35,272 bases of DNA from an uncultured Bacteroidales bacterium (lineage in GTDB: Bacteria; Bacteroidota; Bacteroidia; Bacteroidales; UBA932): contig ONQC01000018.1 of the NCBI GenBank assembly GCA_900319855.1, forward strand, positions 13,085 to 48,356, in the 5' to 3' direction. The translations under genes and the position numbers were made by a program. Shown in pieces: positions 25,227-33,078 of the stretch; the first letter of the stretch is position 1; each line of letters opens with the position of its first letter. Below the pieces are notes generated by a model. The model saw only the letters and a list, made by a program, of their open reading frames with translations. It was not told the DNA's origin and searched no databases.

Positions 25227-27104
25227 ATGTCACACAGTCTTTTTGAGCTGAATGCCATGACTGAAGATCAGCTCCGTACATTGGCAGACGAACTCGGGAT
25301 CAAAGGCACCAAGAGAATGAATGCCGAAAACCTGGGTTATGCCATCCTGGATAAGGAGGCTTCCATCGCATCCAAGCAGCCCGAACCGCAGCCTGAGAAA
25401 CGCAAGCGCGGTCGCCCGAAAAAGGCGGCGGAGACCCCTGCGTCGCAACCGGCGACTGCCCAACCGGAGGAAAAGAAACCGGAGTCCAAGAAGGAAAAAC
25501 AGGCCCGGAAAGAGGCCAAGCCCGAACAGTCCCCTGCCAAGAAACAGCCTGCTGAAAAGAAGGAGAAAGCCCCCAAGGAAGAAAAACCGGCAGTTGCTCC
25601 CGCCAAACCGGCGGAACAGGCCCCTGTAAATACCGAAGCGCCTGCCGCCCCTGCGGCGGAGGCCCCAGCCACCAAGAAGCGCGGCCGCAAACCCAAGCAG
25701 CAGGCCGCCCCTGCCGCCGATACTCCGGCCCAGGAGCAGGCGGCTCCGAAAGCGGAAAAACAGCAGGCCGAGGCTCCGGCCCCGGCTCCCGCACCGGAAG
25801 AGATGCCCAAACCTGAAACGCCCAAACCGGCTGAGGTCCAGCAGAACCAGCAGCCTTCCCAGAACCCGCAGCAGAACCGCCGGGATAAAGGGAAGAACCG
25901 CCAGGGCGGGGACCAGTCCCAGCAGCCTCAGCAGCAACAGCGTCCGCAGTTCCAGCCCCGTATCGAGTTCGAAGGCACGGTCGAGGCGACGGGCGTGCTG
26001 GAAATCATGCCGGACGGCTATGGTTTCCTCCGCTCATCCGACTATAATTATCTGAACTCGCCGGACGATATCTATGTCTCCCAGCAGCAGATCAAGATCA
26101 ACGCCCTCAAGACCGGAGACACCGTGACGGGCGAGATCCGTCCGCCGCGCGACGGGGATAAGTATTTCCCGCTGGTCAGCATCAAATATATCAACGGCCG
26201 TACGCCGGAGTTCATCCGCGACCGTGTTCCGTTCGACTTCCTTACTCCCCTCTTCCCGGACGAGAAATTCAACCTGCTTGGACACGGACATGAAAAAGAC
26301 CTGTCCTGCCGGATCGTGGACATGTTCACCCCGATCGGAAAGGGCCAGCGCGGTCTGATCGTCGCCCAGCCGAAGACCGGTAAGACCATGCTCCTCAAGT
26401 CCATCGCCAACGCCATCGCCGACAACCATCCGGAAGTTTACGAGATCGTCCTTCTGATCGACGAGCGTCCGGAAGAAGTGACGGACATGAGCCGCAGCGT
26501 CAAGGCCGAGGTCGTAGCGTCTACTTTTGATGAACCGGCGGAACGTCACGTCAAGGTGGCCAACATGGTCTTGGAGAAAGCGCGCCGCCTGGTGGAATGC
26601 GGTCACGATGTCGTCATCCTGCTGGACTCCATCACCCGTCTGGCCCGTGCGTACAACACCGTCCAGCCGGCTTCCGGCAAGGTCCTGACCGGCGGTGTGG
26701 ACGCCAATGCCCTCCAGAAACCCAAACGTTTCTTCGGTGCCGCCCGCAATATCGAAGGCGGCGGATCCCTGACGATCCTGGCCACCGCACTTACTGAAAC
26801 CGGTTCCAAGATGGACGATGTCATTTTCGAGGAATTCAAGGGTACCGGCAACATGGAACTCCAGCTGGACCGCAGCCTCTCCAACCGCCGTATCTTCCCT
26901 TCCGTCAACCTGATCCTCTCCAGTACGCGTCGTGACGACCTTCTCTACGATGCTTATACACTGAACCGGATCTGGATCCTCCGTAAACTGCTGGCCGATA
27001 TGAATCCGGTCGAAGCGATGAACTGGATCCAGCAGCACATGGACGAGTTCAAGACGAACAAAGACCTGATCGACAACATGTCCAAGTTCGGACGGTACGA
27101 ATAA
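25227..27104 (+). CDS. rho: Transcription termination factor Rho with long disordered insertion
   Basis: A hexameric RNA helicase that ends transcription of untranslated RNA. The Rho N-terminal helical domain ([21 protein letters not shown]) covers about residues 4-45. Residues of about 46-240 are then almost entirely Ala, Pro, Lys, Glu and Gln, and must be disordered. After that come the RNA-binding cold-shock domain ([15 protein letters not shown], from about 261), the ATPase with Walker A AQPKTGKT (about 380-387) and Walker B VILLDS (about 463-468), and the Q and R loops. It has 625 residues against about 420 in E. coli. Such an insertion is known in Bacteroidota, where it has been linked to condensate formation. 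Strong terminator just after the stop. Confidence 0.98.
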
Positions 27105-27137: not shown

Positions 27138-30100
27138 TTAGTATTCATCCCAGGATTTGATCTGGATCTCTTCGAGCGGCAGACTGCTGAAGGCCCGGAT
27201 GAAAGCCGTCGCCAGCCGGGCGTTCGTGAGCAGCGGGATGTTGAAGTCAATCGCGGCCCGGCGAATCTTGTAACCGTTCTCCAGCTCGATATCCGTAAAG
27301 TTCTCCGGGATGTTGATGACCATGTCAACCTCCTTGTTCTGGATCAGGTCCAGCGCCGGACGGTAGCGGCGGTAGTTGGGGTTGTCGCATTCACTCGGCC
27401 AGAGGACTTTCTCGCAGCGGATGCTGTTCTCCACGAAATACTTATGGGTCGCACCCAGGGCGAACAGTTCATACCCGTTCTCGGCCAGCAGCTTGCAGGC
27501 CTGGAGCATGTCGGCACGCTGGCGGGCGTCACCAGTAGAAATCAGGATCTTTTTACCCGGGATTTCCATGCCGACGGAAAGGACGGATTTGAGCAGGGCT
27601 TCGTTCAGGTCATCACCCAGGCAGCCGACTTCTCCCGTCGAGGACATATCGACTCCCAGCATCGGATCGGCCTCTTCGAGGCGGGCAAACGAGAACTGGG
27701 AAGACTTGACTCCTACATAGTCCAGGTCGAAGGCACTCTTCTGCGGGGCAGCCGGATGCAGGCCCAGCATGACCTTGGTTGCCAGTTCGATGAAATCGAT
27801 TTTCAGGACCTTGGAGACGAACGGGAAACTCCGCGACGCCCGCAGGTTGCATTCGATGACCTTGATCTCATTGTCCTTGGCCAGGAACTGGATGTTGAAC
27901 GGACCGCTAATACTCAATGCATTGGCGATCTTCCGTGCGATCTTCTTGATCCGCCGGACGGTCTCGACATACAGCTTCTGAGGCGGGAACTGGATGGTCG
28001 CATCGCCGGAGTGGACACCGGCATATTCGATATGCTCAGAGATGGCATAAGCCAGGATTTCTCCTTCATCGGCGACGGCGTCGAACTCGATTTCCTTGCA
28101 TCGCTGCATGAACTGGCTAATGACAACCGGGTGTTCCTGAGATACTTCTGCTGCCAATGAGAGGAAATGGCGGAGCTTCTGTTCATCATAACAGACATTC
28201 ATCGCTGCACCGGACAGCACGTAGGACGGACGGACCAGGACCGGGAATCCGACTTCTTTGATGAACTGGTCGACATCTTCCAGGGTCGTCAATTCCTTCC
28301 AGCGCGGCTGGTCGACTTCCAACTGGTCGACAATGCTGGAGAATTTGTGACGGTCTTCCGCTTTGTCGATATCTTCCGCGCGGGTGCCCAGGATCGGGAC
28401 GCCGCTGTTGGACAGCCTCAGCGCCAGGTTGTTCGGGATCTGGCCGCCGACAGAGACCACGACGCCGTGCGGATTTTCCATCTCCACGATGTCCATGACC
28501 CGTTCGTAGGTCAGTTCGTCGAAATACAGGCGGTCGCACATGTCGTAGTCCGTCGATACCGTTTCGGGGTTGTAATTGATCATGACGCCCCGGTAACCCT
28601 GTTTCTGGATGGTCTGCAAACACGTGACCGAGCACCAGTCAAACTCGACGGAGCTGCCGATACGGTAGGCTCCGGATCCGATCACGACGACGGAACGCCC
28701 GTCGTTCTCATAATGGATATCGTTATAAGAACCGTTGTAAGTCAGGTACAGGTAATTTGTCACGGCCGGGAACTCAGCCGCCAGGGTGTCGATCTGCTTG
28801 ACCACCGGAACGATGCCGAGGGATTTCCGGAAGCGCCGGACTTCCTCCTGATGCACCGTGGAATGGCCGGTATCCTTGTAGATGGCCCGCTGGATCTGGA
28901 AATCCGAAAAGCCTTGCTGTTTGGCAAGCCGGAGCAGGTCGGCCGGCAGGTCCATGACCTGGTCATACTCCCGCATCTTCTCGAACGTGTTGACGATGTC
29001 GGCAAGCTTGTCGAGGAACCAGCGGTCGATCTTGGTCAGCGCGTGGATCTGATCCACCGTATAACCGGCGCGCATGGCTTTGGAAATGACGAAGATACGA
29101 CGGTCTGTCGGCTCACGCAGCGCCAGGTCCACATCCGCGACCTGAAGCTCTTTGTTCCCGACGAAGCCGTGTGCGCCCTGGCCGATCATGCGGAGACCTT
29201 TCTGGATGGCTTCCTCGAAGGTACGGCCGATGGCCATGACCTCTCCGACGCTCTTCATGCTCGAGCCGATCTTGCGGGAAACGCCGTGGAATTTGCTCAG
29301 GTCCCAGCGCGGGATCTTGCAGACGATGTAGTCCAGGGCCGGTTCGAAGAAGGCGGGGGTCGTCTTCGTCACGGAATTCTTCAGGTCAAACAAGCCGTAG
29401 CCCAGGCCAAGTTTGGCGGCAACAAAGGCCAGCGGATAGCCGGTGGCCTTGGAAGCCAGTGCAGAGGACCGGCTGAGCCGGGCATTCACCTCGATGACGC
29501 GGTAGTCCATGGAATCAGGGTCGTAGGCGTACTGGACGTTGCATTCGCCAACGATGCCGAGATGGCGGACGATCTTGATGGACAGTTCGCGCAGGAAGTA
29601 ATAGTCCCGGTTGCTGAGGGTCTGGGAAGGCGCGACGACGATACTCTCGCCCGTATGGATGCCCAGCGGGTCGAAATTCTCCATGTTACAGACCGTGATG
29701 CAATTGTCATAACGGTCCCTTACTACCTCATATTCAATCTCTTTCCAACCTTTCAGAGATTTCTCGACCAGCACTTGCGGCGAGAAAGAGAAGGCTTTGT
29801 CGCAGAGTTCCTCCAGCTCCTGGTCGTTGTCGCAGAATCCGGAGCCGAGTCCGCCAAGGGCGTAGGCCGCGCGGACGATCAGCGGATAACCCAGTTCGTG
29901 TGCCGCCTTGCGGGCTTCCTCCATGTTGGCCGCGGGATGGGATTTGATGGTCTTTACCTGGATCTCATCCAGTTTGCGGACGAACAAGTCGCGGTCTTCG
30001 GTATCCATGATCGCCTGGACCGGCGTACCGAGAACATGTACATTGTATTTGTCGAGAATCCCCTTCTGGAACAGTTCGACGCCGCAGTTCAGCGCCGTCT

Positions 30101-30374
30101 GGCCGCCGAAGGAAAGCAGGATTCCCTGCGGATGTTCCTTCTTGATGACCCTTTCAACGAACCAGGGCGTCACCGGAAGGAAATAGATCTTGTCTGCTAC
30201 GCCTTCCGAGGTCTGGACCGTCGCAATGTTCGGATTGATCAGGACGGTTTCAATCCCCTCTTCCCGGAGGGCTTTCAACGCCTGGCTTCCGGAATAGTCA
30301 AACTCGCCGGCCTGGCCGATTTTCAAGGCTCCGGAGCCGAGGATCAGTACTTTACGGATGGTTTTATCGATCAT
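27138..30374 (-). CDS. carB: Carbamoyl-phosphate synthase large subunit
   Basis: Makes carbamoyl phosphate from bicarbonate, ammonia delivered by CarA, and two ATP, for pyrimidine and arginine synthesis. At 1078 residues it is full length. Two homologous ATP-grasp halves begin at VLILGSGALKIGQAGEFDYS and at VVVIGSGAYRIGSSVEFDW. Motifs include RAAYALGGLGSGF, RPSYVLSGAAMNV and VIEVNARLSRSSALASKATG. The C-terminal domain from about residue 930 (GKKILISTGDARQ) is the MGS-like allosteric domain that binds regulators such as UMP or IMP in other CarB proteins. Its ATG overlaps the carA stop (ATGA), favouring equal production of both subunits. Expression should follow the attenuator upstream of carA. 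Confidence 0.98.
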   Translation of the reverse strand: MIDKTIRKVLILGSGALKIGQAGEFDYSGSQALKALREEGIETVLINPNIATVQTSEGVADKIYFLPVTPWFVERVIKKEHPQGILLSFGGQTALNCGVELFQKGILDKYNVHVLGTPVQAIMDTEDRDLFVRKLDEIQVKTIKSHPAANMEEARKAAHELGYPLIVRAAYALGGLGSGFCDNDQELEELCDKAFSFSPQVLVEKSLKGWKEIEYEVVRDRYDNCITVCNMENFDPLGIHTGESIVVAPSQTLSNRDYYFLRELSIKIVRHLGIVGECNVQYAYDPDSMDYRVIEVNARLSRSSALASKATGYPLAFVAAKLGLGYGLFDLKNSVTKTTPAFFEPALDYIVCKIPRWDLSKFHGVSRKIGSSMKSVGEVMAIGRTFEEAIQKGLRMIGQGAHGFVGNKELQVADVDLALREPTDRRIFVISKAMRAGYTVDQIHALTKIDRWFLDKLADIVNTFEKMREYDQVMDLPADLLRLAKQQGFSDFQIQRAIYKDTGHSTVHQEEVRRFRKSLGIVPVVKQIDTLAAEFPAVTNYLYLTYNGSYNDIHYENDGRSVVVIGSGAYRIGSSVEFDWCSVTCLQTIQKQGYRGVMINYNPETVSTDYDMCDRLYFDELTYERVMDIVEMENPHGVVVSVGGQIPNNLALRLSNSGVPILGTRAEDIDKAEDRHKFSSIVDQLEVDQPRWKELTTLEDVDQFIKEVGFPVLVRPSYVLSGAAMNVCYDEQKLRHFLSLAAEVSQEHPVVISQFMQRCKEIEFDAVADEGEILAYAISEHIEYAGVHSGDATIQFPPQKLYVETVRRIKKIARKIANALSISGPFNIQFLAKDNEIKVIECNLRASRSFPFVSKVLKIDFIELATKVMLGLHPAAPQKSAFDLDYVGVKSSQFSFARLEEADPMLGVDMSSTGEVGCLGDDLNEALLKSVLSVGMEIPGKKILISTGDARQRADMLQACKLLAENGYELFALGATHKYFVENSIRCEKVLWPSECDNPNYRRYRPALDLIQNKEVDMVINIPENFTDIELENGYKIRRAAIDFNIPLLTNARLATAFIRAFSSLPLEEIQIKSWDEY

Positions 30375-31447
30375 AATTTACTGATGAATTCGTCAAACAA
30401 GAATTGGGTGTCCGTCGGGCCGCTGGAGGCCTCCGGATGGAACTGGACCGACCAGAAAGGCTTGCTCTTGTGCCGGATCCCTTCATTGGTCCCGTCGTTC
30501 ATATTGATGAACCAGGGCTCCCAGTCACTGCCCAGGGTGTTGTTGTCGACGGCAAAGCCGTGGTTCTGGGAGGTGATGAAACAGCGGTTGGTCCCGACCA
30601 TGCGCACCGGTTGATTGTGGCTGCGATGGCCGTATTTCAATTTATAGGTAGATGCGCCACCGGCCCGGGCCAGCAGCTGGTTGCCCATGCAGATGCCGAA
30701 GATCGGCTTATTACCTTGCATGGCGGTCCGCAGGTGTTCGACGGTCTTGACGCAGAACTCGGGGTTGCCGGGTCCGTTGGAAATGAACAGGCCATCGTAC
30801 TCCAGCTGGTTGAAATCGTAATCCCATGGTACGCGGATCAGCTCGACGCCCCGCTCGACGAAACAGCGCAGGATATTGTGCTTGACGCCGCAGTCCACCA
30901 TGACGACTTTCTTCTCTCCACTGCCGTACCGGATGACATCCTTGCAACTGACAAGGGCGATCTGGTTGTCGAGGTTGGGGTCCGCGACCGGGAAATCCCG
31001 TTGCTGACCTTCCGGGACGATGATACCGAGCATGGAACCCTGTTCACGCAGGATCTTGGTCAGTTCGCGCGTGTCTATGCCATAGATGCCGGGGATCTTC
31101 TGTTCCCGCAGCCATTGGTCCAGGCTCTTGACGGCCTCCCAGTGGCTGTAGTGCTCCGAGTAATCGGAGATGACGAGTGCCCGTACCCAGATCTTTTCGG
31201 ATTCGAAATTCTTCGAAATCCCATATTCATCCGTTCCTTCATCCGGAACGCCGTAATTACCTATCAACGGATAAGTTACGCAGAGTATCTGCCCTGAATA
31301 GGAAGGGTCGGTCAAGCTTTCCGGGTAGCCGACCATGGCCGTGGAAAAAACCACTTCGCCGTCAGTGGGGCCTTCATAGCCGAAAGACCAACCTTCGAAG
31401 GTCTTCCCATTGCTGAGTTTAAGAGTCGCTCGAATTCTCTTCTCCAT
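30371..31447 (-). CDS. carA: Carbamoyl-phosphate synthase small (glutaminase) subunit
   Basis: Splits glutamine and channels ammonia to CarB. The 358-residue protein has the N-terminal CPSase small-chain domain (LSNGKTFEGWSFGYEG, GYPESLTDPSYSGQI, GIDTRELTK). A class I glutamine amidotransferase domain follows, with the nucleophile Cys253 in FGICMGNQ and His337/Glu339 in QFHPEA. The triad is complete; in the nucleophile motif Asn stands where many homologues have His, a position outside the triad. The start at 31447 (MEKRIRATLKL) is 12 bases past the U-tract of an intrinsic terminator, so the gene is expressed only when that terminator is passed. Confidence 0.97.
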   Translation of the reverse strand: MEKRIRATLKLSNGKTFEGWSFGYEGPTDGEVVFSTAMVGYPESLTDPSYSGQILCVTYPLIGNYGVPDEGTDEYGISKNFESEKIWVRALVISDYSEHYSHWEAVKSLDQWLREQKIPGIYGIDTRELTKILREQGSMLGIIVPEGQQRDFPVADPNLDNQIALVSCKDVIRYGSGEKKVVMVDCGVKHNILRCFVERGVELIRVPWDYDFNQLEYDGLFISNGPGNPEFCVKTVEHLRTAMQGNKPIFGICMGNQLLARAGGASTYKLKYGHRSHNQPVRMVGTNRCFITSQNHGFAVDNNTLGSDWEPWFINMNDGTNEGIRHKSKPFWSVQFHPEASSGPTDTQFLFDEFISKL

Positions 31448-31458
31448 GTTTCGGTTAT

Positions 31459-31493
31459 AAAAAAAAGACCATCCGTCCGGAGACGAAATGGTC
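31459..31493 (-). terminator. Intrinsic terminator in the carAB leader (attenuator)
   Basis: On the minus strand GACCAT (31493-31488), TT, CGTC (31485-31482), loop TCCG, GACG (31477-31474), G, ATGGTC (31472-31467), then eight T residues (31466-31459). This gives ten paired positions with one small internal loop and a full U-tract. There is no minus-strand gene upstream whose transcript it could end: mnmE points the other way. It must therefore act on the carAB leader transcript itself. Confidence 0.8.
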
Positions 31494-31569
31494 AGTCGTT
31501 GTCATTGAAAAAAGGGGCTTGGCCAGTCTTTGCACTGGTATCCGGGGATATGTTCCGAAGTCCGATCAT
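31492..31569 (-). CDS. Candidate carAB leader peptide (25 aa)
   Basis: ATG at 31569-31567 opens a 25-codon frame starting MIGLRN and ending PFFNDND, with TGA at 31494-31492. The last two bases of the stop are the first two of the terminator 5' arm, so a ribosome finishing the peptide would cover that arm. A purine-rich AAGGACAAGG just precedes the ATG. Within the ORF, CCAGT (31538-31534) and ACTGG (31527-31523) form a small hairpin, followed nine bases later by six T residues (31513-31508) encoding part of Phe-Phe. Hairpin plus U-run resembles an RNA polymerase pause site. That it is translated is inference. Confidence 0.5.
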   Translation of the reverse strand: MIGLRNISPDTSAKTGQAPFFNDND

Positions 31570-31589
31570 GGCCTTGTCCTTAATTCGTG

Positions 31590-31621
31590 CAAAATTAAGC
31601 AAAAGGATTGGACTGCGCAAA
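31590..31621 (-). promoter_or_regulatory. Putative promoter of carAB
   Basis: On the minus strand TTTG (31621-31618), 20 bp, TAATTTTG (31597-31590): exact consensus and spacing. Transcription would start near 31583, giving a leader of about 135 nt ending in the attenuator and carA. It lies inside the short gap that also must hold the mnmE promoter, facing the other way. Confidence 0.65.
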
Positions 31622-31665
31622 TAAAAATGCTTCCCGATTTGCCAAATATATCGTATCTTCGCGAC

Positions 31666-33078
31666 ATGAAATTCCGTTCTTCCGATACGATCGCCGCACC
31701 GGCCACTGTCCCTGGATCAGGGGCCATCTCCATCGTCCGTATCAGTGGTCCGGACACCTTTCCCGTGTTGGACCGGCTGATACGCTTTAAAGAAAGTAAC
31801 GCTTCAAGTTCAGGAGGATATCGTATTAAATATGGGGAGATTATAGATTCTTCCAGCGTTCTGGATGAAGTGCTTGTCAGTCTATTCCGGGCGCCTCATT
31901 CCTATACGGGAGAAGATATGGCGGAAATCTGCACGCACGCGTCCGGCTTTATTGTCAGCCGTCTGTTGGAGCTGCTCCTGCAGTCCGGTGTCCGGTCCGC
32001 AGAGCCCGGCGAGTTCACCCGGCGCGCCTTCATGAACGGCCGGATGGACCTGGCCCAGGCCGAGGCCGTCGCCGATGTGATCGCGGCGGAAAGCGAAGCT
32101 GCGCACCGGGTCGCTATGAACCAGATGCGCGGCGGGTTTTCATCCGAACTGATGCAGATGCGCTCCGAGTTGCTGGAGATGACGTCGCTGATGGAACTGG
32201 AACTGGATTTCAGCGAAGAGGATGTCGAGTTTGCCGACCGGTCCCGGTTGCGGAACCTGCTGGCGCATCTGGACGGACATCTCGAGCGGCTGATCGCCTC
32301 GTTCCGGCTCGGCAATGCGATCCGCAATGGTGTCCCTGTGGCCATCGTCGGTCCGGTAAACGCCGGCAAGAGCACGTTGCTGAATGCCCTGCTCGAAGAC
32401 GACCGTGCCATCGTTTCCGACATCGCCGGAACGACACGGGATACGATTGAAGAGACTTTGAACATCGACGGTGTCCTCTTCCGCTTCATCGATACCGCAG
32501 GCCTCCGTGAAACCTCCGAGAGTATTGAAAAATCCGGTATTGAAAGGAGCCTTCGGAAGCTGTCTGAGGCCTCCGTCGTGCTGGTTGTCCTGGATGCTTC
32601 GAGTCCTTCAGATGGTCTCGAAACCGAGCTCAATCAGATTGTCAAAAAAATCAATCCTCCTGCGCAACAGGTCCTGGTTTTATTGAATAAATCCGACAAA
32701 TCAGGCTGGAACAAAAATGTTATCGATATAAACAACTATGTTTCTCGGATTGGTTTAGATGCAGTTGTGCTCAAAATATCTGCAAAAGATAAAATCGGCA
32801 TCGATGCATTGAAAAAAGAGCTGGTTTCGAACTGGAAAGTCAATAATAAAAGTTCCGACCAGACCTTGGTCACCAACATCCGCCACCTGGAAGCCCTCCG
32901 GAATGCCCGCACTTCCCTGCTCCGCATCCGCGAAGGCCTCGATCAGCAGCGCCCCTCCGACCTCATCGCCCAGGACCTCCGCGACGCCATCGAATCCCTC
33001 GGTTCCATCCTCGGCCAATCCATCACCCCCGACGAGGTCCTCGGCAATATTTTCAAGCATTTCTGCATCGGGAAGTAA
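31666..33078 (+). CDS. mnmE: tRNA uridine-5-carboxymethylaminomethyl modification GTPase
   Basis: With MnmG it modifies U34 in the wobble position of certain tRNAs. The 470-residue protein has the N-terminal folate-binding domain (TIAAPATVPGSGAISIVRISG), helical domain, and a G domain with P-loop GPVNAGKS (229-236), DTAGLRE, and NKSD near 341. It ends in the invariant FCIGK, whose Cys is needed for activity. The start MKFRSSDT at 31666 fits the family; an upstream in-frame TTG would run through the carA promoter. Only a weak -7 (TATCTTCG, 31654-31661) is seen. Composition is uneven: AT-rich at about 32640-32860, then almost only C-ending codons from 32880 to the end. A probable integration site forms its last 18 bp. 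Confidence 0.97.
   Translation: MKFRSSDTIAAPATVPGSGAISIVRISGPDTFPVLDRLIRFKESNASSSGGYRIKYGEIIDSSSVLDEVLVSLFRAPHSYTGEDMAEICTHASGFIVSRLLELLLQSGVRSAEPGEFTRRAFMNGRMDLAQAEAVADVIAAESEAAHRVAMNQMRGGFSSELMQMRSELLEMTSLMELELDFSEEDVEFADRSRLRNLLAHLDGHLERLIASFRLGNAIRNGVPVAIVGPVNAGKSTLLNALLEDDRAIVSDIAGTTRDTIEETLNIDGVLFRFIDTAGLRETSESIEKSGIERSLRKLSEASVVLVVLDASSPSDGLETELNQIVKKINPPAQQVLVLLNKSDKSGWNKNVIDINNYVSRIGLDAVVLKISAKDKIGIDALKKELVSNWKVNNKSSDQTLVTNIRHLEALRNARTSLLRIREGLDQQRPSDLIAQDLRDAIESLGSILGQSITPDEVLGNIFKHFCIGK
33061..33078 (+). other. Candidate attachment site at the 3' end of mnmE
   Basis: TTCTGCATCGGGAAGTAA encodes the invariant Cys-Ile-Gly-Lys-stop end. From memory, SGI1-type islands of enterobacteria integrate into this same end of trmE/mnmE, with a core differing at two of 18 positions (TTCTGTATTGGGAAGTAA). 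An integrase gene begins about 470 bp downstream and points away, as at the left end of such islands. The matching right-hand copy would lie outside the window. Confidence 0.5.

Follow-up and report, generated by a model that had tools for sequence, protein, structure and literature searches.

The carAB operon of an uncultured Bacteroidales bacterium, which we assign to the large genus Cryptobacteroides (named relatives include Candidatus Cryptobacteroides species), is preceded by a leader that probably acts as a transcription attenuator in the manner of Escherichia coli pyrBI, in that low UTP would bring a translating ribosome to mask an intrinsic terminator; the probability of this reading is put at about 0.55. 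In the window (the whole stretch of 35,272 nucleotides that was analyzed), a promoter, a short leader open reading frame (ORF) holding a small hairpin and a U-rich stretch, and a terminator stand in this order ahead of carA, and the same parts in the same order are conserved in relatives. The features, from the promoter into the operon, are as follows.

31590..31621, minus strand: Bacteroidetes-type promoter, an exact consensus match (TTTG at 31621-31618, N20, TAATTTTG at 31597-31590)
31492..31569, minus strand: leader ORF of 25 codons, MIGLRNISPDTSAKTGQAPFFNDND*, whose stop codon shares two bases with the beginning of the terminator stem
31523..31538, minus strand: small hairpin, the proposed pause hairpin, CCAGUGCAAAGACUGG; -5.8 kcal/mol alone, doubtful in the window sequence
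31508..31513, minus strand: six-U run, the proposed UTP-sensitive pause zone, beginning 10 nt past the hairpin
31459..31493, minus strand: intrinsic terminator (attenuator), stem 31493-31467 and U8 31466-31459; -14.4 kcal/mol
30371..31447, minus strand: carA, carbamoyl-phosphate synthase small subunit, the regulated gene (NCBIfam TIGR01368, 451 bits)
27138..30374, minus strand: carB, large subunit (NCBIfam TIGR01369, 1534 bits), with a 4-nt overlap with carA

Promoter, leader ORF, hairpin sequence, six-U run, and terminator with its U8 all lie where a first-pass annotation, made from the letters of the window, had placed them. NCBIfam matches confirm carA, carB, and, on the other side of the leader, a divergent mnmE, so that the position of the terminator is within the carA 5' leader; carB and carA presumably form one operon. 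Since mnmE is read outwards, the terminator is not needed by any upstream gene, as the annotation had also maintained. The leader upstream of carA on the minus strand would be about 140 nt long, counted from a putative transcription start site placed from the promoter. The promoter pattern TTTG-N19..21-TAnnTTTG occurs five times in the window, against 0.08 occurrences expected from shuffles. The gene for transcription termination factor Rho, whose N-terminal region is long and charged, converges on carB (window 25227-27104, plus strand).

The attenuator would work as follows. RNA polymerase would initiate at the promoter and a ribosome would start on the leader ORF. When UTP is plentiful, the polymerase would outrun the ribosome, and the terminator would form and end transcription 11 nt short of carA. 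At low UTP, the polymerase would be slowed in the U-rich stretch, perhaps with help from the small hairpin; the ribosome could then close up and, while finishing the leader, cover the 5' arm of the terminator, which would block the terminator and allow carAB to be transcribed. UTP as the signal and a close step between ribosome and polymerase are thus predicted from the layout of the leader.

The terminator is clearly beyond chance in the single window sequence: none of 200 shuffles matched its stem energy. Its last U is separated by 11 nt from the carA ATG (31447), and it would be expected to end transcripts in vivo. Relatives carry similar GRCC...GGTC-U terminators ahead of carA, and it is the conservation of the parts in relatives, described below, that lifts the whole device above chance.

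Relatives were collected by a CarA search of 400 genomes of the genus, in which 224 had a match with an E value no higher than 1e-100. The other 176, including 44 of the 150 genomes with completeness of 90% or more and contamination of no more than 5%, had no CarA match at this threshold, so carAB seems to be patchy in the genus. Upstream regions were taken from 137 genomes, namely those with the best CarA matches and those of clade C2, whose CarA is about half identical to that of the window; since these genomes were picked by CarA similarity and not at random, the fractions that follow do not stand for the genus. A long leader with a terminator was found in 57 of the 137 (48 directly and nine through identical named loci, with eight loci classed by eye) and a short leader with a terminator in 13. 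The remaining 67 were placed by script in neither class; among these, one locus (L181) belongs by eye to the long class and is kept outside the 57, one (L166) is truncated where its contig ends, and in two (L209 and L191, the latter identical to L098) the terminator stands bare. Many of the terminator-less carA genes sit directly behind another gene. The script that called terminators missed some; L017, L084, L085, L241, L243, L245, L246, and L248 were recognized by eye and enter the genome count only.

At 80% identity, 53 long leaders collapsed into 34 clusters, on which the tests below were made. Left out of these tests were the window found again (L002), a leader at a contig edge (L087), the 13 short leaders (treated apart), loci whose hairpins were judged to be chance or foreign to a carA leader (L003, L026, L046, L047, L049, L104, L106, L118, L156, L216, and L220), L098 and L209 (a terminator without a leader), and L140-L160 (outside the genus, not carA, or terminator-less).

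An ATG-initiated leader ORF of at least 18 codons, with its stop in the interval from 7 nt ahead of the stem to 24 nt into the terminator, is present in 33 of the 34 clusters, against 5.6 expected from dinucleotide shuffles of the same leaders (P 5e-28, although P values of this kind overstate the case because the clusters are related). The single miss, L219, has an ORF that passes through the terminator and whose stop overlaps the carA ATG; adding L098 and L209, which have a terminator and no leader ORF, brings the count to 33 of 36. Hand-picked representatives gave the same picture, with an ORF to the terminator in 16 of 16 (2.4 expected), and among nine loci classed by eye eight have an ORF that reaches the terminator or passes through it. 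In six of these nine the end of the ORF falls in the range from 5 nt ahead of the stem to 18 nt into it; in L245 the stop comes 12 nt ahead of the stem, L181 reads past the terminator, and L017 has both an ORF ending at the terminator and a longer one reading past it. Across the clusters the ORF is 23-40 codons long. In the 33 clusters with an ORF the first leader ATG lies 9-28 nt past the -7 box, except in eight C2 clusters, where the distance is 45-60 nt; in the window it is 20 nt. The leader ORF is predicted to be translated.

The stretch between hairpin and terminator is rich in uridine, with a fraction of 0.45 as compared with 0.24 upstream of the hairpin (Wilcoxon 8e-9 over the 34 clusters; p 1.4e-4 for the same contrast in 18 hand-picked representatives). 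Counted behind the hairpin, U reaches 0.73-0.76 at offsets 12-14 in the 34 clusters, and is also high at offsets 8 (0.74) and 25 (0.73). At offsets 12-14, which were selected post hoc with the profile already seen, the fraction is 0.75 against 0.455 in shuffled segments, and 0.57 against 0.44 in the 18 representatives (p 0.013). The longest U run is 1-3 in seven of the 34 clusters. By analogy with pyrBI, the U-rich stretch may be a polymerase pause zone, and such a zone would give the ribosome a reason to catch up at low UTP.

These counts bear on one alternative, in which a mere terminator reduces carAB expression to a constant degree and the ORF ahead of it is there by accident. L209 and L098, in which the terminator comes directly past the promoter with no leader ORF, agree with it, as does the classing of 67 of the 137 genomes as without a leader terminator; however, the presence of the ORF, the position of its stop, and the U content are all far from chance, and this explanation is quite improbable.

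Constraint on the codons of the leader is weak. Before the hairpin, pN/pS is 0.68 in C2 (17 sequences), 0.78 in C1d (10 sequences), and 0.35 in C1b (six sequences), and values as low were obtained in 63, 97, and 30 of 300 column shuffles, respectively; strong selection at the level of the peptide was rejected, since this test was not significant. Weakly held residues are what would be expected of a leader that merely carries a ribosome, and they are also what the first-pass annotation had named as a warning sign; a leader of the pyrBI type needs an open frame alone.

The short leaders mostly lack the pause zone. Twelve of the 13 sequences have no run of five U, the exception being L113 with a U6. 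In one class (L015, L016, L021, L023, L194, L200, and L210) an MQKIQQII*-like ORF of 8-9 codons ends 6-15 nt before an GACGACCG...GGTCGTT terminator, again with no run of five U. Short leaders and bare terminators together lessen confidence in UTP as the sole signal. An attenuator that depends on translation might instead read general translation capacity, or be set by a nascent arrest peptide, with UTP playing no part. Most short leaders, consisting of an ORF and a terminator with no pause zone, would fit this, and so would the conserved wording of the C2 peptide (MCKR..GTYLxVNALPDNAQ, 17 aligned sequences), which is echoed in clade C1b (GSYSPLSALSDNA). Against it are the weak purifying selection on the codons, the frame-shifted endings of the leaders in L244 and L245, which change the peptide, and the enrichment in U, which it leaves without explanation; overall it is unlikely. 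A pyrBI-like attenuator, the central proposal of the first-pass annotation, is supported in part, by an order of ORF, U-rich zone, and terminator that recurs in many dissimilar relatives and by a translating ribosome as the one antiterminator in sight, and is weakened by the short leaders, by the weak codon constraint, and by the hairpin.

The hairpin is the doubtful part. It can be drawn at the place at which the annotation put it, and has a z score of -3.2 when excised exactly, but a search along the leader for its strongest hairpin gives p 0.17, and folding of the full window leader disfavors the element, which is absent from the best structure and has a mean pair probability of 0.09; part of it pairs there with the start-codon region instead. 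The whole-leader fold of the window is itself unremarkable (z -1.2), and in the nearest relative, L080, the pair probability of the hairpin in such a fold is 0.00. One may argue that a ribosome on the 5' part of the leader would clear the pairings that compete with the hairpin. Among the relatives, all 34 clusters allow a hairpin of at least five perfect pairs to be drawn, which in 27 of them lies 22-40 nt upstream of the terminator; it is part of the minimum-energy whole-leader fold in 17 of 34. The hairpins are weak singly (median p 0.13; L168, L186, and L198 have practically none), and their sequence differs between clades: GCAUUA/UAAUGC, GCAUUG/CAAUGC, GUGCC/GGUGC, GUGUACC/GGUGCAC, and CCAG/CUGG.

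Consensus folds were made with RNAalifold for sub-families C2 (17 sequences) and C1d (14 sequences), with the window's own clade outside them. Hairpin and terminator are the only elements, 33 nt apart in both, and no antiterminator is present in the folds of the two sub-families (A1 and A2); in C1d one hairpin pair changes from G-C to A-U in 4 of the 14 sequences. Since neither consensus fold has an antiterminator and the ORF ends at the terminator, the ribosome is the obvious candidate for that role.

Searches for known RNA and protein regulators were negative. No Rfam model matched window positions 30900-32100 (E up to 5) or any of 11 loci (E up to 0.1); a riboswitch was rejected on this result and on the lack of an alternative pairing in the two consensus folds. 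PyrR was found in none of 20 genomes (E up to 1e-5), in a search that matched 7 of 14 control genomes, and a PyrR attenuator was rejected. A more general form of the idea, in which some protein or small molecule on the leader RNA controls the terminator and translation has no part, would account for a hairpin that is kept with some covariation and for the competing 5' fold of the window leader. It sits poorly with these searches, with hairpin sequences that are wholly different between clades, and with the two consensus folds, which lack a competing antiterminator (the window's clade lying outside them), and it would make the open frame in 33 of 34 clusters superfluous; it is improbable.

Sensing of an amino acid through stalled ribosomes was weighed in the same leaders. 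The window peptide terminates in NDND, from which the first-pass annotation had drawn supply of Asp and Asn as a second possible signal; moreover, the product of CarAB serves arginine as well as pyrimidines, and 18 of the 20 genomes have a second carbamoyltransferase match. Codon counts for Arg, Asp, Asn, Gln, and Glu in 33 leader peptides revealed no conserved run, and the folds made contain no antiterminator. Arg is absent altogether from 11 of the 33 peptides, Asp from nine, Asn from seven, and Gln from eight; within the last 14 residues at least two Asp occur in two of the 33 and at least two Asn in four, which lends the second signal no support, and two Arg or two Gln in none. Asp/Asn, Arg, or Gln sensing was rejected on these counts, and an attenuator of this kind is very unlikely. 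Two genomes, G050 (96% complete) and G127 (90%), keep the leader with the second carbamoyltransferase not found, which is a hint against arginine as the signal.

A leader of the same kind ahead of pyrB was looked for and rejected: in the loci read, pyrB trails another gene, which we take to be yigZ, and no leader stands directly ahead of it (27 pyrB loci, in several of which the script chose the wrong frame).

In the genomes searched, the leader of the C2 type stands at carA alone. Covariance model R1, built from C2, matched in 20 of 300 genomes of the genus, at one place each and always directly upstream of carA; 13 of the 20 are its source sequences and seven are new. The seven new matches are in genomes with the other CarA type, which makes the leader types related across that split. 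R1 has no match in the window's own genome, so this specificity for carA is that of forms related to the one in the window.

The complete device was not seen in 40 carA leaders of other Bacteroidales, three of them from the same family, which argues for an origin separate from that of enterobacterial pyrL; the device is probably of independent origin. The script flagged a terminator in seven of these 40 leaders: in L271, L278, and L280 it spans the promoter and looks spurious, in L292, L295, and L297 it is of a type seen in Dysgonomonas, and L281 (as L275 by eye) has a terminator-like hairpin ahead of carA with no hairpin-U zone.

Other arrangements were observed in the carA leaders of these bacteria. 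In nine of the 40 (L271, L278, L280, L288, L289, L293, L296, L301, and L305) CTATCGT lies at most 4 nt before the carA ATG. By eye, transcripts of these leaders start GGTTT(T)...AC(G)ATAG...AAACC-like, which may form a 5' hairpin with a loop complementary to CTATCGT; a scripted pattern for this hairpin had no match in the 40 leaders, and Rfam none in L271, L288, L301, and L305. Pairing of the hairpin with CTATCGT could mask the carA start codon. In four leaders (L272, L275, L277, and L281) GGAAACC (or GGAACC) comes after a GGTTTTTCA-type start, giving a 5' hairpin with a U-run in the initially transcribed region, and such starts might allow UTP-dependent slippage like that at E. coli carAB P1. 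Dysgonomonas-type leaders (L146, L147, L149, L150, L153, L154, L155, L157, and L159, together with L292, L295, and L297) show by eye a 5' repeat, CAGATATTCA...GTATTTGA, followed by a GGAAC...GTTCC-U terminator, which stands about 50-65 nt upstream of carA in the L146-L159 set.

Literature searches on attenuation of pyrBI and carAB and on UTP-sensitive and Bacteroidetes leaders gave no description of the device, as judged by title and start of abstract among the matches listed. Pyrimidine control in Cryptobacteroides was likewise undescribed, and no paper on transcription-translation coupling in Bacteroidota stood out, in the literature searched, to which subscription papers are mostly external. 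Functional coupling is still an open question for most phyla; B. subtilis is reported to be uncoupled, as cited in the accessible text of PMC7819879. The fuller proposal, that Cryptobacteroides independently evolved a UTP-sensing carAB attenuator dependent on a close step between ribosome and polymerase, has in our judgment an even chance of being right. If it is, gene control in Bacteroidota would make use of functional transcription-translation coupling, and carAB would have a UTP sensor that acts after initiation. An open frame with its stop at the terminator, kept through wide change of sequence and accompanied by no antiterminator in either consensus fold, makes coupling testable in this phylum.

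With pyrBI (pyrL) of E. coli and Salmonella the present leader has in common an ORF that runs to an intrinsic terminator, a U-rich zone inside the ORF (here a putative pause zone), a pyrimidine-pathway operon downstream, and, as proposed here, the ribosome as antiterminator, which is its role at the pyrBI leader terminator. It differs in controlling carAB, in phylum and promoter type, and in the length of the leader, 23-40 codons as compared with 44 in E. coli pyrBI. The pyr attenuators of Bacillus and relatives, which are controlled by PyrR, likewise attenuate pyrimidine genes; they need PyrR and an antiterminator, of which the former was found in none of the 20 genomes and the latter in neither of the two consensus folds. 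In E. coli a short distance from stop codon to terminator nearly abolishes termination, steeply so in pyrBI, according to the portion of PMC4824070 available. For the pyrL pause in vitro, the available part of PMC9291695 describes no stabilization by NusA and compensatory hairpin mutants that failed to restore the pause; these data, as far as that text goes, count against a role of the hairpin and not against the U-run, and since the pause is not stabilized by NusA, the comparison with pyrBI can stand even with a hairpin in doubt.

Candidate leader-peptide attenuators have been reported in Bacteroidetes (Flavobacterium and Bacteroides; PMC9723704, PMC7366714, both available in part). From what these texts give, they likewise have a short leader ORF but concern amino acid operons or unassigned ORFs, whereas in the leaders described here no codon run was found. 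The E. coli carAB operon is the same operon and is also read out by UTP; its control comprises ArgR, other factors, and UTP-dependent reiterative initiation. In the accessible part of PMC6245113 this control is placed at two promoters, P1 and P2, and involves slippage at GUUU, and attenuation is reported not to act at carAB P2 or at the arginine genes. In contrast to E. coli carAB, the signal in Cryptobacteroides would be read after initiation.
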